DNA of 64,000 bases from Nitrospira sp. ND1 (GTDB lineage: Bacteria > Nitrospirota > Nitrospiria > Nitrospirales > Nitrospiraceae), in NCBI RefSeq assembly GCF_900170025.1, contig NZ_FWEX01000006.1, forward strand, positions 2,007,089 to 2,071,088, given 5' to 3'. Under the pieces are notes generated by a model. It saw only the letters and a program-made list of their open reading frames with translations. It was not told the origin of the DNA and ran no database searches. Positions 29,365 through 40,244 of this stretch are shown here, one piece after another (the first letter of the stretch is position 1; each line of letters begins with the position of its first letter). A program made the position numbers and the translations under genes.

Positions 29365-30666
29365 ATGACGCCTGGCCCCCAACTTCCCGATGCGACCCAT
29401 ACCACCCCACTGACGCCCGAAACGGAGGCGCAGGTCGACCAATTCGCCCATACGGATATTTTGGTCGGGATTCCCAGCTTCAACAATGTCGAAACCATCG
29501 GGCATGTCGTCAAGGCGGTGAGCGCCGGCCTGGCCAAGTATTTTCCGGAAGCCCGCGCCGTATTGGTGAATTCGGACGGCGGCTCGACCGACGGGACGCA
29601 GCAGGTGGTTTCGCAGGCCGTCGTCGATCTCAAGACCCTCTTCATCGGCGATCAGCAGAGCTCGCTCCACAAGATCATCACGCCGTATCACGGCATTCCC
29701 GGTAAGGGGAGCGCCTTTCGCACGATTTTTGAAATTGCGCGTCGCTTGAAAGCCAAGGCCTGTGCCGTCGTGGACTCGGATCTGCGGAGCATCACCCCGG
29801 AATGGATTGAGTTGCTGGTGAGCCCGGTGTTTGAGCAGGGGTTCGACTACGTCGCGCCCTATTATCTGCGGCACAAGTATGACGGGACTATCACCAACAG
29901 CATTGTGTATCCGCTGACGCGAACCCTCTATGGTCATCGTATCAGACAGCCCATCGGCGGCGATTTCGGTTTTTCCGGCCAGTTGGCCCAGCACTATCTC
30001 GACAAGCATGTGTGGGAATCGGAAGTGGCCAAGTTCGGCATCGACATCTGGATGACGACGGAAGCGATCGCCAGCGGAGCGCGCGTCTGTCAAAGCTTTC
30101 TGGGCGCGAAGATCCACAACCCCAAAGATCCGGCGGCGGACCTGTCGGCGATGTTGGTGCAGGTGCTGGGCGCCGTGTTCGCGCTGATGGAAGATCACTA
30201 TGCGGTGTGGGGCAAGACGGATGGCTCGAATGCCGTACCGTTGTTCGGGTTTCAATACGAGGTCGGGGTCGAGCCGGTCAACGTCAATGTCGATCGGATG
30301 ATCAGCACCTTTCGGCAGGGCCTGAGTGATCTGGGGACGATTTGGGATCAGATTCTCGCTCCCGGCACCAGACAGAGTCTGAGGCCGTTGGGAACCTGTT
30401 CGGCGCAAGACTTTCGTATTGCCGACAATCTGTGGGCACGGGTCGTGTATGACGCCGCCGTGGCCTACCGCAATCGCGTGTTGCCGCGCGACCATGTCTT
30501 GAAGGCCTTCACTCCCCTGTACCTGGGGCGAACCGCTTCGTTTGTGTTGGATACCCAGGGGCTCACATCGAGCGAGGCCGAGGGCCGCATCGAAGCCTTG
30601 TGCCAGGCGTTTGAAAAGGATAAGTCCTATCTGGTGGCGCGCTGGAATGAGCCACATGCAGGGTAA
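29365..30666 (+). CDS. GT81-like glycosyltransferase, probable glucosyl(phospho)glycerate synthase
   Basis: 433 residues, GT-A fold. It begins ILVGIPSFNNVETIGHVV, then SDGGSTDGT, a DxD-like AVVDSDLRS, a YPLTRTLYG segment, the RQPIGGDFGFSG segment and FGIDIWMTTEAI. This order (DSDL, RPL-like, QPLGGE-like, GxDI) is the one seen in GT81 glucosyl-3-phosphoglycerate synthases. About 100 residues at the C-terminus form an extra helical part. The phosphatase gene at 31761-32591 is of the mannosyl-/glucosyl-3-phosphoglycerate phosphatase type, so the pair would make a negatively charged compatible solute. Donor and acceptor sugars are an inference. Confidence 0.75.
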   Translation: MTPGPQLPDATHTTPLTPETEAQVDQFAHTDILVGIPSFNNVETIGHVVKAVSAGLAKYFPEARAVLVNSDGGSTDGTQQVVSQAVVDLKTLFIGDQQSSLHKIITPYHGIPGKGSAFRTIFEIARRLKAKACAVVDSDLRSITPEWIELLVSPVFEQGFDYVAPYYLRHKYDGTITNSIVYPLTRTLYGHRIRQPIGGDFGFSGQLAQHYLDKHVWESEVAKFGIDIWMTTEAIASGARVCQSFLGAKIHNPKDPAADLSAMLVQVLGAVFALMEDHYAVWGKTDGSNAVPLFGFQYEVGVEPVNVNVDRMISTFRQGLSDLGTIWDQILAPGTRQSLRPLGTCSAQDFRIADNLWARVVYDAAVAYRNRVLPRDHVLKAFTPLYLGRTASFVLDTQGLTSSEAEGRIEALCQAFEKDKSYLVARWNEPHAG

Positions 30667-30723
30667 TGCGCGCAACTCGATCCATCTGAAGGCAGGCTGC
30701 AGTAGAGGCCGGAGGAGGGAAGT

Positions 30724-31431
30724 ATGAAAGAATTTTTTGAGAAGGGGCTACTCGATCCCCTGGAGTTGATGGCGCGGCAGGTGCTTGCGGTGTTACCGAG
30801 CCTGTTGGCGATGTCGATCATTTTCTTCGCGGGATTGGTGGTCGCGTGGACCGCCAGTCAGGCGCTGGAGCGGTTGCTGCGGGTGGTCGGGCTGGATCGA
30901 TTGTTCGATCGACTGGGAGTGACGGGCGCATTGCTGCGCGGAGGGGTCAAAACCGATCCGTCACGTCTGGTGGGGCAAGCGGCCTATTGGTTGGTTATGA
31001 TTTTCGCGACCGTCGCCGCCTTGGGTGCGCTCAATCTCCAGCCGATCAACGATTTCGCCAAGTCGTTCCTGGCGTATGTGCCGCATCTCGTGACGGCGGG
31101 TCTCATTCTCGTCGCCGGTTGGTTATTATCCAACTTTGTGTCCCAGGCGGTTCTGATCGCCGCCGTCAATGCAGGGTTGCCTCCGGCGCGACTGGTGGCG
31201 ACCTGCTCGCGATGGGGGATTCAACTGTTGGCGGTCGCCATGGCGCTTGAGCAACTCGGGATCGCCCAGAATATCGTGGTGGTGGGATTCGGCATTACAC
31301 TCGGTGGGCTCGTCATGGCCGGGGCGATTGCATTCGGCCTGGGCGCCAAGGATTTGGCCAAAGACTATCTTGAGCGCGGGCTTTCGATCCGCACGCGGGA
31401 CGGGGCGCCTGATGACTTGCGCCATCTCTAG
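30724..31431 (+). CDS. Short MscS-like membrane protein (conserved-TM-helix repeats, no beta domain)
   Basis: 235 residues with about five membrane helices (for example LLAMSIIFFAGLVVAWTA, LVTAGLILVAGWLLSNFV, VVVGFGITLGGLVMAGAIAFGLG). The GLGAKDLAKDYLERG end is the typical TM3 end of mechanosensitive channel-like proteins, but the cytoplasmic beta and vestibule domains expected next are absent; the chain stops 20 residues later. Such short forms occur as a separate Pfam family (conserved TM helix). A good ribosome site (GGAGGAGGGA) precedes ATG 30724. It is 57 bases after the glycosyltransferase, so a role in solute release under osmotic downshock is likely. Confidence 0.75.
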   Translation: MKEFFEKGLLDPLELMARQVLAVLPSLLAMSIIFFAGLVVAWTASQALERLLRVVGLDRLFDRLGVTGALLRGGVKTDPSRLVGQAAYWLVMIFATVAALGALNLQPINDFAKSFLAYVPHLVTAGLILVAGWLLSNFVSQAVLIAAVNAGLPPARLVATCSRWGIQLLAVAMALEQLGIAQNIVVVGFGITLGGLVMAGAIAFGLGAKDLAKDYLERGLSIRTRDGAPDDLRHL

Positions 31432-31477
31432 GCAACCGCTGTTTCGACACCTAACATATAGCTGGTAAGGATCTAGC

Positions 31478-31699
31478 GTGACCGATAAAATTTCAGATGT
31501 CGATGCTGAGGCCAAGGCGCGGCGCTGGCTGGGCGGCGAAGCGGCCGTGCCCCGTTACCCGCACCGGCGCCAGAGCCCGTTCGTGTTCAACCGCTCGCTT
31601 GTGGGCCTTGTGGCGTTTGCGGTCGGACTAGGGTTTGCCGGTGGGCTTCTGGCAGGTCTCCAGTGTCGGCGTCGTCCTCCTGTCTCTGCGAAGGAGTAA
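31478..31699 (+). CDS. Small single-pass membrane protein
   Basis: 73 residues, GTG start at 31478. One hydrophobic helix (SLVGLVAFAVGLGFAGGLLAGL) near residues 40-61, preceded by a charged, basic N-terminal part and followed by a short basic tail. It is 46 bases after the MscS-like gene on the same strand, so it may be a partner of that channel. The start lacks a strong ribosome site and there is no recognisable family, so the call is moderate. Confidence 0.5.
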   Translation: MTDKISDVDAEAKARRWLGGEAAVPRYPHRRQSPFVFNRSLVGLVAFAVGLGFAGGLLAGLQCRRRPPVSAKE

Positions 31700-31760
31700 C
31701 CATGAGTCGACCATTGCAGCGTTGGTGCCGGGTGGTTCGGGAGTGCCGATCCGCTGATCG

Positions 31761-32591
31761 TCAAAGGGTCGGCAACAGATCCATGAGGCTTCGGTTCCAT
31801 CCGACAGGCCCCACCCCTTCGGCGCGGGTGAGGTGGGGAAACTGCACGTCCGAATCGTAGGAACCGTCCGGCTTCCGGACGAGGATGGGGTAGGTCACTG
31901 CTTCCAGCATGGGAAGGTCGTTCAGACTATCCCCAATGCCCACGGTGATCAGGGCGCGTCCTTCCTGCTGTGCGCGCCGCTCGTACCAGGCAATGAGTCG
32001 CCGGCTCGCAACCCCTTTATCGTTTCCTCCCATCAAATGATAGAACCGGCCTCCTCGGGTCCAGCGCAAGCCGCGTGTTGCCGCCGCTGCTGACAAGCGG
32101 TTCCAGACCATCCCATTCGATTCCACAACAACCGGCTCATCGTATTCCCGTTGGGTGGCCAGCAGAGTCTCCGCAGGAGACAGCCCCGTGAGGTCTGACA
32201 CCTCTTCGAGAGAGAGATCCCCGAACCCTCGCAAGCGACAGCCCAGATCCCCCCCGATTTCTTTCAGGGCCGTCCTGAGCCGGACATAGGGGGTGCCGAT
32301 TTCGACCACCTCGTAGTCCCCGCGGGGTGCGGCCTGCTCCAAAGGAAATGGGAAATAGCCCATGGGGATGAACAACGCTCCGCCGTTTTCGACGATAAAG
32401 GGATGGCGATTGTCCAGGCGAAGTCGCAGCGGCTCCATTTCCGATCGGGTCTTGCTCGAAACCAGGATAAGCGTTGCACCCAGGGTCTGAATGGCAGAGA
32501 GGGCGCCCGTGGCTGCCTCGTAGGAATAGGTGGTGGCGTCGAGCAGGGTTCCGTCGAGGTCCGTAAGGATGAGGATGTGGGCCTTGGTCAA
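31761..32591 (-). CDS. Mannosyl/glucosyl-3-phosphoglycerate phosphatase family (HAD)
   Basis: About 276 residues. The Cof-like HAD fold has motif I ILTDLDGTLLD (Asp11, Asp13), motif II VSSKTRSEM, then the ENGGALFIP segment and motif III/IV VGIGDSLNDLPML. The KT-RSEM, ENGGALFIP and HLMGGNDKG segments are typical of the mannosyl-3-phosphoglycerate phosphatase group. I chose TTG 32591 because AAGGAGG lies 5 bases before it; the ATG at 32639 has no such site. It converges on the glycosyltransferase-channel genes and likely removes the phosphate from the sugar-phosphoglycerate they make. Confidence 0.85.
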   Translation of the reverse strand: MTKAHILILTDLDGTLLDATTYSYEAATGALSAIQTLGATLILVSSKTRSEMEPLRLRLDNRHPFIVENGGALFIPMGYFPFPLEQAAPRGDYEVVEIGTPYVRLRTALKEIGGDLGCRLRGFGDLSLEEVSDLTGLSPAETLLATQREYDEPVVVESNGMVWNRLSAAAATRGLRWTRGGRFYHLMGGNDKGVASRRLIAWYERRAQQEGRALITVGIGDSLNDLPMLEAVTYPILVRKPDGSYDSDVQFPHLTRAEGVGPVGWNRSLMDLLPTL

Positions 32592-33000
32592 GGAGTCCTC
32601 CTTGATCACAGTATACGAACCCCCGGAGATGGATAACACATCATTCTCGGACAGTCAGTGCTCCCGTCTGCCGACGGTGGCGACTTCCAGACTGTGTGTC
32701 AGAACCGGCACAGGAGAATTCCTAATCAAGATCGTGCCCGGTAATGCCGAAAAGGATAGACACATGGCTGTGTCGGAGAGCTGGGTGACGTTATCCAGGT
32801 AAACGGCAGGCATTCCACGGTCATCACCGCATCATGGCTCAGAAGAGGACCATGTAGTGGCCAAGGCACTTCCCTTGCTTTCCCCCGAATGGTGCAGTTG
32901 TTCAAGGCGGTGGATTGCCCGGTTGGGATAGTCCCTGCTGGCATTCTAGTCATGGAGTCATGCGGCGCGAGAAATGTCTGTAACTTTATAGGTTTATACA
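32592..33000. other. Intergenic region, 409 bases
   Basis: No convincing gene. A 75-codon open stretch on the minus strand (32726-32953) has no ribosome site and no protein-like features. The right end is AT-rich (near 32980-33000) and probably holds the promoter of the large repeat protein. Confidence 0.5.
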
Positions 33001-36000
33001 GTGCGATCTGATAAGAAATCTCCTCTCAAGTCAGACAAAAAAGTCCCTCCGAAGGTCCAGAAAAAGGGGAGCATCGGCTTTAACAAAAAGTCGGCGCTTC
33101 TCGAAGATGCCATTACACAAATGAACGCCGGCAAGTACGGCCGGGCGTCCTCCGCGTTGAAAGACCTGCTCGCGCTTGACCCGCTCAACGCGGAAGCCCG
33201 GCGCCTCTTCGCCACTCTCCATCTGCGGCTCGGCAGTCTCATGAGCGCCAGGACGGCGTTCGAATCGCTGGCTCGGGAAGCGATGGAGCGGCAGGACTAT
33301 TGGTTGGCGGAGTCGCTCTTGCGGGAATATCTGACGGCGGGACCCCGCTATGTTCCTTTCCTGGAGATGCTGGGCCGTGTCTACGAGGAAAAGGGCGACG
33401 TCATGGCGGCGGTGGCTGAGTACGGCAAGGCGGTGGAGGTGTTGCTGGAAGATCCGGACACCGACCATCCGAACCGGGCCAGCGATCTCTTTGTGCGGAT
33501 TCGTTCCCTGGCCCCGGGAAGTCCGGTGGCCTTTCGTTTCGCGGCCATGTTCGACACGGTAACCGGGCAGGTCCTGCAGGTTACTCCCCAGCCTCCTGTG
33601 GTCGATTCTATCAACGAGACCGCTCACGCCCCGGCACTGATCGAGACTCCCCCTGTTACAGACTCTGCGGTGGTCATGCCTTGGGAGCAAATGGAGACGG
33701 CCTCCAGTGATGTCCCACGCCAACAGGAGATTCAGGTCTCGGCGGTCGAGCAGTCCCCTGAGGTGATTGCTTTCACCACCACCTCCTCGACGCTGGAGGC
33801 GGTGACAGAAGATCTGCTGCAGGCCAAGCCAGAGGAGTCACTGTCGGTTACGCTGCCCGTCGATTCGCCACAGGAGTCGGAGGTTCAACCTCAATCTGAG
33901 TCTTCAGTTTCAGCCGTTACCTCGGCGGTGGAGTCGGTGCAGGCTGCCGGTGAAAGTGATCCTCCTGTCTTAGAGGTCGATCCTGCTTCGATAGAGTCGG
34001 CCGAAATAGCTTCTGCATCGGTTGCCGAGGTGTTCACCCCCACGATGGACGCGTCGGCGAAAACCGGTCCCGACTCGGTCGCTACACTGTCGGCACACTC
34101 CGCGCCGATGCCCTGGGACCAAGTGGAAGAGGCCGCTGGGATCATTCCTCCGCAGCCAGAGGGACCGGCGGCGACGCCGGCGGACATTGCTCCTCCCCCT
34201 TCGGGAGAGGTGGGCCTCACGCCATCAGTGGCCGAGTCGCCAGCTCCGTCGATTGAGGTCCTCACGCAGTCCAGTGGGCACCCGATTGCCACAGCACCGG
34301 CGAGCCCTGCCCCCATGCCTTGGGACCAGATCGAAGAGGTTGCGGTCGTAATCCCCTCGCCACCGTCGAGTCCGGAACCGGTCATTGTTGACGCCGAGTC
34401 GTTGCCGCCAACGCAGAGCGAGGTCTCAACGCTGCCGCTGGCCGAATTAGCTCCATTCCAACCTGTCGAACCTGAACCGCCGGCTGCCGCCGCTCCGATG
34501 CCGTTCGAAGAGATGGACCTTGAGGCACCAGTGTCTGAGCCCATCGCGCCGACGATCGAAGTGCTCACGCAGGTCAGTAGCCATCCTATTGCCCAAGCGC
34601 CGACAAGTCCTGCGCCGATGCCCTGGGATCAGATCGAAGAAGCAGCGGGTGCTGTGGATCCGCGCACTGAGACCCTGATGGAGCCTGGAACGGACGAGGT
34701 TGAGAAGGCGATCGAGTCTCCTGCGCCAAACCAGGCGGCCGAGGTCAGTCAGGCCGCGGAGTCGGTTTCTTCATCGCGTCCTTCGGAACTCACCTCATCG
34801 GGACTCTCATGGGAGGAAATTCTTGCGGCTGTGGCGGCCATGCAAACGTCTCCTGCGCCCGCTCAGACGCTTTCGGATGGTGAGCAGAAGCCTGCGTCCG
34901 ATGCTGCGGTACAGGAGCAGACGGCTGGCGCTCTCACGGCTCCGCCAGCTCCTCCAGAGGAAGAGTCACCCTTGTTCGAGGCGACGGTCCCGGACATTCC
35001 GGCTGATCAGGCCGGTGCAGCCACAACCTTGTCGGCGCCCATGCCATGGGAACAGATTGAAGTGGACGATGTCACGATTCCGCGCCAGGAGCCTGAGCCA
35101 GAATTTGGCCCGGCCTTTGCCGAGGGTGTCGTGGCAGTACAGGACTCCACGGTGGCGTGGCCTGCAGCGCCAGACGTGACTGAGGCAACGGTTGCTGGAG
35201 AGGCTTGTTTGGCTGAGACCGTCGCTGATCGCCCTGTGGAGCCTATTGCCACAGTGACCGCTGAATTGCGGATTCTCTCCCCGGATGCTCCGACCAAGGC
35301 GCCTGAGGATTCTATTCGTATTCCAGTCGAGCCCTACAAGGCGGTCGAGGTGCCGACTCCGGACACCGTGCCTGAAGCTGAACAACCGGCCGAATCCACG
35401 ATCGATCGAGCGGTGGAAGCTCCGTTGCGTCTGGCCGACAGTGAGTCGGTTGTCGCCACGAGTTTAGAGGAACCACCTCCTGCTTCAGTCGAACCGGTGA
35501 CGGAGTTTGCCATTGCCGTCAACACCGACGTGACGCCGATGGAACCGGAGCAGGTCACCGTCGAAGAGCCTCAGGCACCGGTCGGCGAGGCGGTTGCGGA
35601 ACTGCCGTCGGAGCCAGTCCTGCCGGTGGAGCAGCCCGCGGAGATTCTCCGCGCACAGGAGGTCAGAGTCGAGCTTGCGCCGGAGGCGCTCGCGGAGAGT
35701 CGTGTTCCTGCCGCCACGCCTTCCCTAGCGGACGAGAAGCCGGTTGCGGGAGCCGAGCCGGTTGCACCGGATGCCCCCTTGTCGCCGGTTGTTCTGGGGG
35801 TGACACCTCAAGCAGAGCCGGAGATGGCGTTGACCGATCAGGAGCCATCCTCTCCATCAGCGGCTGAGGCTCGTGAAGTTGACACGGTTCCCATAAGCGA
35901 ATCCATTGTTCCTCCGGTGGAGGCATCGCTCAATCCGGTCGCGCCGTCTCCCGAAGCAGCCTCACTTCCGCCGAGTCCTCTGCCGATCATTGTCGCAACG

Positions 36001-37902
36001 GAGGAACCGGTTTTGCCTCCGGTCGAGCCAACGCAAGCGGCGGTCGTCTCTCCATCGCCAGAACTCGTGGAGGCACCTGCTGAGTCTGTGGCTCCTTCGG
36101 AGGAGCAGGCGCCGCCTCCAACGGCTCAGGTGGTTTCTCCGCCCGACGCGGGTGAGGGGTTGCGGATTCTGTGGGATGACACGTCGTCTAAGCCGACTCC
36201 GAGCGCCTCAACCGGGAACATGCTGACACGCTGGCTCAAGAAGCCCGCAGAACCCGTTCTGGCTGAAGTTGCTGAAGCCACTCCCCCAGCGACCATTCCC
36301 GATGAAGCCCCGACTCTTGTTCCCGCCTTGTCTGTCGAGCAACAGGAGCCCGCCGTTGTGGCGGTGGAACGCCCGCACGACGAACAGGAAACTGTGGCGC
36401 CTATGCCCGTGGACGCGCCCGTTGCTCGCCCCAAGCCGAGTCAGCCTGTCGGCGCCGGCGCGTGGACTCGAATGGGCGAGCTGGTGGCCTCTCTGGTTGG
36501 AGCCGGGGTGTCGACGACCCAATCGTTAGTCGTCATGGTCTTGGCGCTGGTCGGGCTCACGCTGGTACTGATCGGCGGAGCGGTCGGTGTGGTCGCACTG
36601 ACATGGCTGGTCCTGGAGGAGCAGCCCAGCGCGGCCTATCGCACCATGACGTCGGTACCGCAACGTACATTGCAGGATTCCAGCAAGAACGGATATGTCC
36701 TTCTCCTTGGATTCGGTGCAGCGGCGTCTCAGGATCCTGTGCAGGCCGGGATGGACCGGCGCGTTGAGGGGGCCGATCGTGCCTATGCCCACGCTTGCCT
36801 GACCGGTGAGGGAGTATCATCCGGCGGGGATCAGGGGGCTTCGGCGGAGTTGGCGGGCAAGTGGATGAAGACTGCCGATCCGGCGGCGCAGATGCGCGCG
36901 GAGGCGACGGGTGTGAAGGGATGGGCATCCCGGGCCGAGGTCAGCATGGGCCGATACCGGCAGTGGTTGACGAAGCCCTTTGAAGACTGGGGCTATGGAC
37001 AATCGATCACCCCGAACTGTGGTCTGATTCTCCATGCCCATCGACTCTATATCGCCGAGGGGTTTGCGCAGGATGTCGAGGCCGGGGTCACACGACTTGA
37101 GACCGATCTGACGGCCTGGCGGACGGTGTTGGGGCAGGCCAAGACGCTGCCGGTAAAAATGCTGGCCAGTGCTGCGATGAATGATGACATTGTGGTCATG
37201 AGCGGACTCTTGCTCCGGCCTGAACTTGACGACCGGTTCGTCAGCCGATTGGCCAAACTCGCCCGGCCGCTTGAACAGGCAGAGCAGTCGGTCCGTTGGC
37301 CGATGCAGAGTCAGTTCGTGCTGGCCACCAAGACGCTGGACGAAGCGGTGAGCGAGGACCGGTCCGATGCCCGACCGTTCTACGGCTCCGTCGCGGCCGC
37401 GTTGCCGTTGCCGAAGCAGCGCCGGTTCAACGCCTATGCGCAATATTATGAAGCCGCGGGCAAGGCTGCTGCAGAGGGGCGGTACACCGATTTGCCGAAA
37501 CAGTCTCAGTTCGTGCACGCGCCCCCGTATGGGCTCGGGGACATCGTGATGAATCCCATTGAAAGCCTCGTCGGGGTGGATCCCCTTCCGACATGGGAGA
37601 CCTACGCAGGTCGAGTGCTGGAAACGGATGCGCGCTTACGGCTGGCATCCCTGCAGGCCTGGTTACGCCGGACACCACCGGAACAGGACCTGCTCACCAG
37701 AATTGCCAAGGCGGGGCAAGGCGTCTACGACCCCTTCACCGGTTTCCCCATGCTGGTGAATATGAAGAAGGGCGTTCTCTATAGTGTCGGCCAGGACTTG
37801 AAGGACAATGAAGCACAGGATCGGTTCGACCTGGTGGCGCCAATTCCCTCGGTCGCATGGGCCGGTGGAAAGCGGCCTGCAGACGCCGATAAATCCAAGT
37901 AA
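33001..37902 (+). CDS. Large TPR / disordered / membrane protein with repeated MPW(D/E)Q motif
   Basis: 1633 residues, GTG start. A stop lies four codons upstream and no ATG precedes the TPR part, so this start is forced. Residues 1-30 are very basic. TPR-like helices cover about 30-200. Residues 205-1165 are low complexity (Pro, Glu, Ala, Val) and contain a motif MPW-D/E-Q-I/V/M-E at 226, 370, 439, 540 and 681, with weaker copies at 500 (MPFEEM) and 603 (SWEEI). One membrane helix lies near 1175-1207, followed by a folded C-terminal part of about 420 residues that should be outside the cytoplasm. It resembles FimV-like organisers in layout, not in sequence. Function unknown. Confidence 0.8.
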   Translation: MRSDKKSPLKSDKKVPPKVQKKGSIGFNKKSALLEDAITQMNAGKYGRASSALKDLLALDPLNAEARRLFATLHLRLGSLMSARTAFESLAREAMERQDYWLAESLLREYLTAGPRYVPFLEMLGRVYEEKGDVMAAVAEYGKAVEVLLEDPDTDHPNRASDLFVRIRSLAPGSPVAFRFAAMFDTVTGQVLQVTPQPPVVDSINETAHAPALIETPPVTDSAVVMPWEQMETASSDVPRQQEIQVSAVEQSPEVIAFTTTSSTLEAVTEDLLQAKPEESLSVTLPVDSPQESEVQPQSESSVSAVTSAVESVQAAGESDPPVLEVDPASIESAEIASASVAEVFTPTMDASAKTGPDSVATLSAHSAPMPWDQVEEAAGIIPPQPEGPAATPADIAPPPSGEVGLTPSVAESPAPSIEVLTQSSGHPIATAPASPAPMPWDQIEEVAVVIPSPPSSPEPVIVDAESLPPTQSEVSTLPLAELAPFQPVEPEPPAAAAPMPFEEMDLEAPVSEPIAPTIEVLTQVSSHPIAQAPTSPAPMPWDQIEEAAGAVDPRTETLMEPGTDEVEKAIESPAPNQAAEVSQAAESVSSSRPSELTSSGLSWEEILAAVAAMQTSPAPAQTLSDGEQKPASDAAVQEQTAGALTAPPAPPEEESPLFEATVPDIPADQAGAATTLSAPMPWEQIEVDDVTIPRQEPEPEFGPAFAEGVVAVQDSTVAWPAAPDVTEATVAGEACLAETVADRPVEPIATVTAELRILSPDAPTKAPEDSIRIPVEPYKAVEVPTPDTVPEAEQPAESTIDRAVEAPLRLADSESVVATSLEEPPPASVEPVTEFAIAVNTDVTPMEPEQVTVEEPQAPVGEAVAELPSEPVLPVEQPAEILRAQEVRVELAPEALAESRVPAATPSLADEKPVAGAEPVAPDAPLSPVVLGVTPQAEPEMALTDQEPSSPSAAEAREVDTVPISESIVPPVEASLNPVAPSPEAASLPPSPLPIIVATEEPVLPPVEPTQAAVVSPSPELVEAPAESVAPSEEQAPPPTAQVVSPPDAGEGLRILWDDTSSKPTPSASTGNMLTRWLKKPAEPVLAEVAEATPPATIPDEAPTLVPALSVEQQEPAVVAVERPHDEQETVAPMPVDAPVARPKPSQPVGAGAWTRMGELVASLVGAGVSTTQSLVVMVLALVGLTLVLIGGAVGVVALTWLVLEEQPSAAYRTMTSVPQRTLQDSSKNGYVLLLGFGAAASQDPVQAGMDRRVEGADRAYAHACLTGEGVSSGGDQGASAELAGKWMKTADPAAQMRAEATGVKGWASRAEVSMGRYRQWLTKPFEDWGYGQSITPNCGLILHAHRLYIAEGFAQDVEAGVTRLETDLTAWRTVLGQAKTLPVKMLASAAMNDDIVVMSGLLLRPELDDRFVSRLAKLARPLEQAEQSVRWPMQSQFVLATKTLDEAVSEDRSDARPFYGSVAAALPLPKQRRFNAYAQYYEAAGKAAAEGRYTDLPKQSQFVHAPPYGLGDIVMNPIESLVGVDPLPTWETYAGRVLETDARLRLASLQAWLRRTPPEQDLLTRIAKAGQGVYDPFTGFPMLVNMKKGVLYSVGQDLKDNEAQDRFDLVAPIPSVAWAGGKRPADADKSK

Positions 37903-38463: not shown

Positions 38464-39081
38464 ATGAACGGCTGTCATTCCCAGATTGCCGTCGATGGAC
38501 AGCCAGGCAGTCTGTGCCTGGGTGAGAGGGTGGGATCACTGGATCGAACCCAGGCATTGGATCGGTTCCTGGCAGGGATTGAGCGGCGCGCATTCCGCAT
38601 GGCACATATTGCCACGGGGAATAAGGATGAGGCGCTCGATCTGGTGCAGGATGCCATGTTGAAGCTGGCGCACAAGTACGGCGAACGGGCCGAGGAGGAG
38701 TGGGGCCCGCTGTTCCACTGTATTCTGCAGAGCCGCATCCGCGACTGGTACCGCCGCGAGAGGGTGCGCAACCGCCTGCGGGAATTTTTCCGCAGCCCTC
38801 ACGATGAGGAGGAGGGGGAGGATCCCCTGGGGCAAATTGCCGATTCGACCGCCGTGGCGCCGGATGAGGACGTGCAGCGTAAACGTGCTTGTGCGGAACT
38901 GGATGTGGCGTTGCGAGCCCTTCCGCTGCGACAGCAGCAGGCGTTTCTGTTACGCATTTGGGAAGAACTGGATGTCGCGCAAACGGCTCAAGCTATGGGC
39001 TGTTCGCAAGGCAGTGTCAAAACGCATTTGTTCCGGGCGTTGCAGGTGTTGCGAACGCGATTGGGAGCGCATTGGCCATGA
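38464..39081 (+). CDS. ECF sigma factor heading a DUF3619/DUF3106 cassette
   Basis: About 205 residues. Region 2 is DRFLAGIERRAFRMAHIATGN followed by DEALDLVQDAMLKLAHKY and ILQSRIRDWYRRERVR; region 4 is ALPLRQQQAFLLRIWEEL then MGCSQGSVKTHLFRALQVLRTRL. An acidic linker (DEEEGEDPLGQ) separates them. ATG 38464 is used; the first 20 residues do not look conserved, and a GTG at 38530 is an alternative. Its stop overlaps the next gene by 4 bases (ATGA), so it is translated with its probable regulator. Target promoters unknown. Confidence 0.88.
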   Translation: MNGCHSQIAVDGQPGSLCLGERVGSLDRTQALDRFLAGIERRAFRMAHIATGNKDEALDLVQDAMLKLAHKYGERAEEEWGPLFHCILQSRIRDWYRRERVRNRLREFFRSPHDEEEGEDPLGQIADSTAVAPDEDVQRKRACAELDVALRALPLRQQQAFLLRIWEELDVAQTAQAMGCSQGSVKTHLFRALQVLRTRLGAHWP

Positions 39082-39437
39082 ACGAACGATCGGATGAACA
39101 ACGGGATCCGCTCGCGGTTGCGGCGAAACACCTCCTCGATCGCAGTGTGCAGGATCTCGATCAGAAGACAGTGCTGTCGGTGCAGCGGGCCAGACTGGCT
39201 GCGCTGGACGCGGCTTCGCGGCGCCGGCAACCTTGGCTTCGGTGGGCCGGGGGTGTGGCGCTGGCATCGATGGCCACGCTGATGGTCACCATCTGGCTGT
39301 GGCAATCCAACGGAGCGAATCACTCCCACCTCCTGCTCGAAGATCTCGAACTGATGCAATCCCCTGAAAATATCGAATTGTCGGAAGATCTCGAATTTTA
39401 CAACTGGCTGGCCGATGGCACCGCCACGACCGGCTAG
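39078..39437 (+). CDS. Single-pass membrane protein, DUF3619-like probable anti-sigma factor
   Basis: 119 residues, start overlapping the sigma stop. An N-terminal cytoplasmic part of about 50 residues (including LLDRSVQDLDQKTVLSVQ), one membrane helix (GGVALASMATLMVTIWLW) and an acidic outer tail (LLEDLELMQSPENIELSEDL). The segment LDQKTVLSVQRARLAAL is characteristic of DUF3619 proteins that sit next to RpoE-like sigma factors in betaproteobacteria. Its place and topology make an anti-sigma role likely; this is not proved by sequence. Confidence 0.7.
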   Translation: MNERSDEQRDPLAVAAKHLLDRSVQDLDQKTVLSVQRARLAALDAASRRRQPWLRWAGGVALASMATLMVTIWLWQSNGANHSHLLLEDLELMQSPENIELSEDLEFYNWLADGTATTG

Positions 39438-39741
39438 TCCTTGGCTGTGGCTCGGTCTGTGTCTGTGTGCCTCACTGGCCCAGGCAGCTCCGGAGCCGGC
39501 GCCGCGACCGGAAGAGGTCGATGTCGATGTTCTCGACTTTCTGGGATCCTGGCAGAACGACTCCGGCCGCTGGGTGGATCCATTCCAAATTGGTGAGGAT
39601 CTTCCCAGAGACGAACGTCCGACTTCGAAGGACGATACGAGAGACCCAGCGACAAGTCCTCGAAGACCGTCGAAGGGCGGCGAGCAGAAGCGTAATTTGA
39701 ACGTGCCACCTGATCCGATGAGGATGCAGACCGGACCATGA
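39415..39741 (+). CDS. Small exported protein of unknown function
   Basis: 108 residues. The signal peptide is LWLGLCLCASLAQA, then a Pro/Asp/Glu-rich mature part with no fold I can recognise, apart from the DVLDFLGSW segment near residue 40. Its start lies inside the end of the previous gene (23-base overlap) and its end overlaps the next start by 4 bases, so it is tightly embedded in the operon. In related sigma/DUF3619 operons a small secreted gene of this kind (often DUF3379 or DUF4880-like) fills this slot. Confidence 0.55.
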   Translation: MAPPRPASPWLWLGLCLCASLAQAAPEPAPRPEEVDVDVLDFLGSWQNDSGRWVDPFQIGEDLPRDERPTSKDDTRDPATSPRRPSKGGEQKRNLNVPPDPMRMQTGP

Positions 39742-40244
39742 GAGCGTTGCTGGTGTGTGTAATCGTGCTGGCATGCGGCGTGGCCTCTGCCGGGGCGCAG
39801 GGCGATTCGGCGGGCGTGCCGTGGAGCCAGTTGAGCCCCGGCGAGCAGCAACTACTGCAACGGTTCAGTGACAACTGGGATCAGCTGCCCCCGCGTAAAC
39901 AACAACGGTTGCGTAACGGGGCGCAGCAGTGGGGGACGATGACGCCGGAAGAGCGTCAGGAAGCCAAGCAACGGTTCAAACAATGGCGGACGCTTCCGCC
40001 GGAGCAGCAGCAACAGCTACGCGAGCGGTATCAGCAGTTCCGCCAGCTTCCCCCTGAGCAACGCGAGTCGGTGCGCGATGCCCGGCGGTGGTTCAGGTCC
40101 CTCCCACCCGAACAGCGGAAAGAACTGCGGGAAAAATTCAAACACATGTCACCGGAGGAACGGCGCGCGTACCGGCGTGAACTTCGTCGTCAGTATGGCG
40201 GGAATGTCGGTGGGCAGGCCCCCGGCGGATCGTCGGCGCCGTAA
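39738..40244 (+). CDS. Exported DUF3106-like protein with QQ-rich helical repeats
   Basis: 168 residues. A signal peptide ends at GAQG. The rest is a run of five or so related helices with the pattern L-(S/P)-P-(G/E)-(E/Q)-QQ-x-L-(L/R)-x-(R/E)-(F/Y): for example LSPGEQQLLQRF, LPPRKQQRLRNG, LPPEQQQQLRERY and LPPEQRKELREKF. This is the form of DUF3106 proteins, which sit next to sigma and DUF3619 genes in other bacteria. A periplasmic chaperone-like or sensing role is a guess. Confidence 0.75.
   Translation: MRALLVCVIVLACGVASAGAQGDSAGVPWSQLSPGEQQLLQRFSDNWDQLPPRKQQRLRNGAQQWGTMTPEERQEAKQRFKQWRTLPPEQQQQLRERYQQFRQLPPEQRESVRDARRWFRSLPPEQRKELREKFKHMSPEERRAYRRELRRQYGGNVGGQAPGGSSAP

Follow-up and report, generated by a model that had tools for sequence, protein, structure and literature searches.

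The bacterium Nitrospira sp. ND1 encodes an uncharacterised membrane-anchored scaffold protein that carries five copies of the short tryptophan motif MPW[DE]Q in a long disordered arm. The motif is, as judged from codon comparisons, under purifying selection and most likely docks a folded partner, for which a separate client protein is our tentative first choice. The scaffold gene is located in the window, i.e. the whole stretch of 64,000 nucleotides that was analysed, and is read on the plus strand (33001..37902, GTG start, 1633 amino acids), as are all features of the protein described below.

Species of the genus Nitrospira perform much of the world's nitrite oxidation. To our knowledge, little is known about the organisation of their cells. 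The protein is a membrane scaffold specific to the family, and its candidate docking motif is precisely defined. Its orthologues, which possess between zero and five copies, represent a natural series for valency tuning in a disordered scaffold. A literature search by motif and by Nitrospira together with TPR or disorder found no mention of MPWDQ or of the scaffold protein in the papers covered.

Architecture of the scaffold protein

The sequence was compared with 79 long forms from distinct Nitrospiraceae species, of which 25 belong to the genus and 54 are others. Left out were G010, whose N-terminus is truncated at a contig end, G017, which is spread over two contigs, G306, which occupies the same place on the contig as L104 and has a truncated N-terminus, and L112, which is broken; their visible parts contain 3, 3, 2 and 1 strict copies of the motif, respectively. 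The start of the coding sequence is supported by a matching R.DKK-type start in those orthologues that have an intact N-terminus. A basic tail of 28 residues (33001..33084; pI 10.6 for residues 1-32) is followed by the TPR head at residues 29-190 (33085..33570). The head was recognised by the Pfam models TPR_16 (36.1 bits, cut-off 32.7) and TPR_19 (29 bits, cut-off 25), and an AF2 model of the N-terminal part, which covered residues 1-460, contains blocks with pLDDT values of 91-97 within residues 31-180. On average, the head is 95% identical in 16 genomes of the genus. Taken alone, it is weakly acidic (pI 5.48, net charge -3), as are nearly all other heads: 77 of 78 have a pI below 7 (G041, with a cut N-terminus, was left out), with a mean of 5.33 vs 4.65 for 17 paralogue TPRs.

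The Pro/Ala/Glu-rich arm extends over residues 191-1164 (33571..36492) and has a pI of 4.05, with 17% D+E and 16% P. Up to residue 460, where the AF2 model ends, its disorder is borne out by low pLDDT values for most of residues 195-453. Among the 79 orthologues, the stretch between the head and the C-terminal domain has a mean length of 839 residues and a mean net charge of -98. A Kyte-Doolittle scan of the window protein revealed a single hydrophobic segment, the membrane segment at residues 1165-1207 (36493..36621), and no hydrophobic signal sequence ahead of the TPR head. The same scan yielded one hydrophobic segment in 66 of the 79 long forms, two in 12 and three in one. The TPR head, the disorder and the single hydrophobic segment had already been proposed in the preliminary description of this DNA, and all of them are supported, the disorder for residues 1-460. 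Since no hydrophobic signal precedes the head, the head and the arm should be cytoplasmic.

The preliminary description had also called for a structure prediction of the C-terminal domain (residues 1213-1633; 36637..37899). The AF2 model is mostly helical (mean pLDDT 81.6, pTM 0.84), with short strands near the end of the domain (YDPFTG.PML...LYSVG.D). Two of its cysteines, Cys1266 (36796..36798) and Cys1340 (37018..37020), are invariant among the 79 long forms and absent from all seven short or domain-only forms. This all-or-none pattern suggests a disulfide between them and hence that the domain is probably periplasmic. Among the families listed by the fold search, there was no confident match (best Foldseek E value 0.99; VIA, Z 7.1, rmsd 4.3 over 167); likewise, there was no Pfam match for the domain at E values up to 1, and the best match among PDB sequences had an E value of 0.33.

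Distribution, short forms and a TPR paralogue

The C-terminal domain is encoded by 27 of the 29 genus genomes. The remaining two, G024 and G002 (97% and 89% complete), have neither the domain nor the coding word of the motif. In the phylum, the domain profile matched 77 of 295 sampled genomes and 13 of 135 genera, and 75 of the 77 genomes belong to the same family. The 29 loci with names all come from Nitrospira or other Nitrospirota, among them Ca. Nitrospira defluvii FP929003.

Nitrospirota also possess short forms of 466-615 amino acids. The seven short or domain-only frames that were read (L113 and L143-L148, the latter from G102, G172, G160, G261, G272 and G148) have a homologous C-terminal domain with 33-38% identity to that of the window, which is located behind one hydrophobic segment in all seven, as in the window protein. 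However, they lack the TPR head, the arm, MPW[DE]Q and both conserved cysteines. Several genomes encode long and short forms together, and five genomes of the family (G102, G172, G244, G261, G314) contain a short open frame only (471-537 amino acids). Because these five show the C-terminal-domain-only form alone, the distribution suggests that the TPR/arm part is a later addition.

The same genome encodes a TPR paralogue of 639 amino acids (L002, 910-2829, minus strand), whose TPR region (residues 237-391) shares about 38% identity with the head. It has no motif, and the conservation of its TPR equals that of the head (0.95 each, 16 genomes). The paralogue is a possible partner or competitor of the scaffold. 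Its match to SgmX is far below the cut-off (118 bits vs 1800).

Resemblance to the HubP/FimV hubs

HubP/FimV proteins have a TPR domain and a periplasmic domain, together with a long acidic region in the cytoplasm and a single membrane segment; the acidic region of HubP is largely unstructured and has imperfect repeats, and the TPR domain of these hubs is assumed to bind clients (PMC12918733). The window protein has the same part list, with TPR, acidic arm, membrane segment and a putative periplasmic domain, and it also places an acidic, unstructured region (pI 4.05; presumably on the cytoplasmic side) beside a single membrane segment. However, the order is reversed, since its TPR is near the N-terminus and the putative periplasmic domain is C-terminal, and its repeats are the tryptophan motif. 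A Pfam scan of the whole protein (E up to 0.01) returned TPR models only and no LysM-like domain, the N-terminus being formed by the basic tail and the TPR. An NCBIfam scan (E up to 0.1) gave no FimV model that would indicate a C-terminal FimV TPR domain; the TPR is N-terminal. TIGR03504 (FimV) had no match in the genome of the window and a below-cut-off match in one of 14 control genomes, while TIGR03505 (FimV) matched none of the control genomes and is hence uninformative. These two models thus give no grounds for calling FimV absent from the genome. Because of the reversed order and since no LysM or FimV domain was detected, the window protein is not classed as a member of HubP/FimV. By analogy, it may work like these hubs.

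A tryptophan motif retained in the arm

A sequence scan located MPWEQ at residue 226, close to the TPR (copy 1, 33676..33690), MPWDQ at residues 370 (copy 2, 34108..34122), 439 (copy 3, 34315..34329) and 540 (copy 4, 34618..34632), and MPWEQ at residue 681 (copy 5, 35041..35055). These are exactly the positions given in the preliminary description, and the number of copies is far above chance: when residues 191-1180 were shuffled 20,000 times, MPW[DE]Q occurred 0.00025 times on average and at most once. As also described before, a weaker form is present at residue 500 (MPFEE, 34498..34512); according to the orthologue alignment, it is poorly conserved. The coding word ATGCCNTGGGANCAR has five matches in the 4.45-Mb genome, all of them within the window gene. 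In 29 genomes of the genus, it has 115 matches, of which 110 are located in the scaffold gene and five elsewhere. The two genomes of the genus that have no scaffold gene contain none. A reversed control word has two matches in the 29 genomes.

The motif is also retained in orthologues. The loose form [MLV]PW[DE][QHDEKRP] occurs in 77 of the 79 long forms (197 copies vs 1.0 expected from shuffles) and the strict form in 63 (156 copies vs 0.01 expected); L134 (from G308) and L136 (from G118) have no copy at all. A homologue search had been proposed to see whether the motif is kept while the linkers vary, and this is what was found: the motif is retained even in lineages whose C-terminal domain has diverged to about 50% identity and whose linkers can no longer be recognised. 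From 143 sites, a wider consensus [AV]-P-M-P-W-[DE]-Q-[VI]-[EQ]-[ED]-x4-[IV]-P was derived, the core of which is already demanded by the collection pattern. Over these sites, M is present in 94%, W in 99% and D/E in 100%, in a set gathered by a pattern that already requires [MLVA]P[WF][DE]. A copy close to the TPR ([MLVA]PW[DENQ]) is located 29-61 residues past the head in 62 of 79 orthologues, and sequences akin to it, for example MSWEQ or PPWEQ, occur in several of the other 17. Distal copies were found in 76 of the 79.

The share of synonymous changes among differing codon pairs was determined in 24 orthologues of the genus. For copy 5 (residues 679-687), which is better conserved than the two other copies in the test, 86% of the differing codon pairs are synonymous, vs 18% and 20% in its flanks (640-677 and 700-740) and 14-15% in two other stretches of the arm. 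By comparison, the share is 93% in the TPR head (residues 33-150) and 61% in the C-terminal domain. The test, which covered copies 1, 4 and 5, gave lower values for copies 1 and 4 (47% and 57%), perhaps because orthologues without an aligned copy were counted as changed. The retention in 77 of 79 orthologues and the codons of copy 5 thus bear out the earlier view of a conserved short linear motif.

Repeats of this kind could arise by low-complexity drift, as slippage by-products in Pro/Ala/Glu-rich coding sequence. Indeed, blocks have been duplicated at a spacing of about 70 residues in some lineages, for instance in G014, where two of them have 83% DNA identity. However, the excess over the shuffles in the orthologues and the strongly synonymous substitution at copy 5, which is absent from its flanks, rule out drift and leave it virtually no chance of being correct, and all five copies in the window differ in their codons, forming five different 15-mers. 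The blocks around copies 3 and 4 (IEVLTQ...HPIA...PAPMPWDQIEE, residues 415-455 and 516-556) exist as previously described, but the recent duplication that they were taken to indicate does not agree with their sequences: they share 85 of 123 nucleotides (69%), and 13 of 28 identical residues are encoded by different codons. Both blocks have counterparts in five close relatives (G008, G015, G019, G022, G023), and therefore the duplication is not recent. As the DNA comparison indicates, block duplication recurs in the genus, with more similar blocks in G014, and the 439/540 pair is old.

Two further islands in the arm were detected by alignment and by the codon test. The motif SGLSWEEILAAVAAMQT (residues 600-616; 34798..34848) is located about 80 residues ahead of copy 5 and has a synonymous share of 70%. 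It contains GLSWEEI at 601-607, and thus the sequence at residue 603 that had been regarded as a weaker MPW[DE]Q form belongs to a separate motif, which is conserved in its own right and occurs as a GLSWEEI-type motif in 43 of 79 long forms. The second island, LRILWDD...TGNMLTRWLKKP (also LRILWDD...TRWLKKP), covers residues 1054-1083 (36160..36249), with a synonymous share of 50% for residues 1054-1085. Both islands are probably separate binding motifs.

The number of copies per protein varies widely: among the 79 long forms, there are none in 2, one in 11, two in 32, three in 5, four in 16 and five in 13. Given the orthologues with one, two or no copies, the multivalency suggested in the preliminary description is lineage-specific (0-5 copies) and inessential to the family. 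The copy numbers also bear on the idea that the motifs are weak aromatic stickers, which would condense the acidic arm without a folded receptor. Trp-centred copies spaced on a charged, disordered arm would suit such a function, and so would the variable copy number and linkers. However, it is not only the Trp that is retained but the order and identity of about ten residues, and 43 of 79 orthologues have just one or two copies. We therefore regard stickers as quite improbable.

A separate client or the own head as possible receptor

We propose that the basic tail and the TPR head lie in the cytoplasm and are followed by the long acidic arm, by a single membrane segment and by a C-terminal domain that is helical and periplasmic. 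The sequence [AV]PMPW[DE]Q[VI][EQ][ED] would be a peptide dedicated to docking and anchored by its Trp, through which the arm recruits a folded client in the cytoplasm. The number of copies (0-5) would set the avidity, and another, putative partner would be bound by the TPR head. That the protein is a membrane hub whose motif docks a separate client is the reading that we favour, with a little less than even confidence; the topology and the cellular role are predictions. It is in line with the retention of the motif in 77 of 79 orthologues, the conservation of about ten ordered positions, the codons of copy 5, the coding word that is nearly exclusive to the gene and the HubP/FimV-like layout. 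Moreover, the equal conservation of the motif-less paralogue TPR favours a receptor other than the head, and AF2 did not confidently dock the motif on the head. No client protein was found, however, and a motif confined to a single protein does not point to any shared receptor. Furthermore, if the head was uninvolved, one would expect neither the nearly fixed spacing between the head and the proximal copy nor the altered heads of the two motif-less orthologues.

These last observations point to the protein's own TPR head as receptor, a possibility that is almost as likely and comes second by a narrow margin, because the head alone is not basic. The proximal copy would dock in cis and close the head, while distal copies would dock on neighbouring molecules or be displaced by clients, so that the scaffold would form clusters of adjustable valency, like the TPRs of kinesin light chain (KLC) with their W-acidic and cis LFP motifs. 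The near exclusivity of the coding word to the scaffold gene agrees with this, as does a candidate peptide groove, tentatively placed around TPR helix 3 (residues 63-79; 33187..33237), in which 16 of 17 positions are invariant (97% or more) in 78 heads, with the head-specific R67 and R76. Six positions (K45, R48, K54, R67, R76, R97) are basic in the heads and not in the motif-less paralogue. However, other head-specific positions are acidic (E35, E140, D151), T72 is Arg in the paralogue, and the head is not basic overall. An earlier notion of a "basic TPR head" attracting the acidic motif was rejected, as the pI of 9.24 for residues 1-190 is due to the basic tail, and so was TPR conservation as evidence of motif binding, given the equally conserved paralogue.

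Among 78 heads, those of the motif-less L134 and L136 have the most changes at the 93 conserved positions (27 and 8, vs a mean of 1.1 and a maximum of 6 in the others). However, this evidence consists of two proteins, of which L134 has diverged throughout and L136 exceeds the others by little, since the motif-bearing L130, L141 and L177 each show 6 head changes. In the C-terminal domain, L134 and L136 come first and ninth over 126 conserved positions (29 and 6, vs a mean of 2.8 and a maximum of 20 in the others). In the AF2 model of residues 1-460, which gives no confident docking, residues 225-231 and 370-376 form three-residue helical turns with pLDDT values of about 50 (block means 51 and 50), and residues 398, 442 and the chain end also reach 50.

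W-acidic peptides have the consensus [LM]-x-W-[DE]-x, which the motif core M-x-W-[DE] of the window protein resembles. The concave TPR face of KLC is reported to bind tryptophan-acidic peptides, which displace a cis LFP motif (PMC6224480). As described there, KLC has, within one chain, TPRs and an acidic linker that carries a hydrophobic docking motif, and the window protein shares this arrangement with its candidate motif. However, KLC is a eukaryotic motor adaptor, whereas the window motif has a Pro before the Trp and is present in several copies in the same chain; in addition, the window head is not basic and motif binding there is putative. KLC TPRs are found at ranks 11 and 13 of the structural matches to the head (6f9i, Z 12.4, rmsd 6.3 over 165), but they are outranked by LGN/Pins TPRs (6hc2 first, Z 14.7, rmsd 6.4 over 172), and TPRs match one another widely. 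It is conceivable, though rather unlikely, that Nitrospiraceae evolved their own hub as a mirror image of HubP/FimV, in which the head binds Trp-acidic peptides that recur along the acidic arm of the same protein and valency and auto-inhibition are set by gain and loss of five-residue motifs. If true, this would be a bacterial parallel to the TPR/W-acidic/LFP switching of kinesin light chain.

Genomic context

Where enough sequence is available, the locus order in the genus is GT2, MscS-like gene, HAD phosphatase, scaffold gene, ECF sigma factor, putative anti-sigma gene, DUF3106, GGDEF, HDOD, AIM24 and M48; the putative anti-sigma gene, which has no Pfam match, is named by its position. Among 24 other long-form loci (L103-L112, L129-L142), AIM24 is located downstream in 21, and L103, L106, L107, L109, L111 and L137 have the GGDEF and HDOD genes upstream instead. 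Synteny gave no clear functional lead. In the window, the ECF sigma factor, the putative anti-sigma protein and DUF3106 are directly downstream of the scaffold gene (38464-40244), and their synteny is preserved within the genus and in some of the other lineages. On the other side, positions 29365-32639 contain together a GT2 gene (weak match to glucosyl-3-phosphoglycerate synthase, below the cut-off), an MscS-type helix protein and a HAD protein of the mannosyl-3-phosphoglycerate phosphatase family, which likely represent a compatible-solute and osmotic-response cluster.
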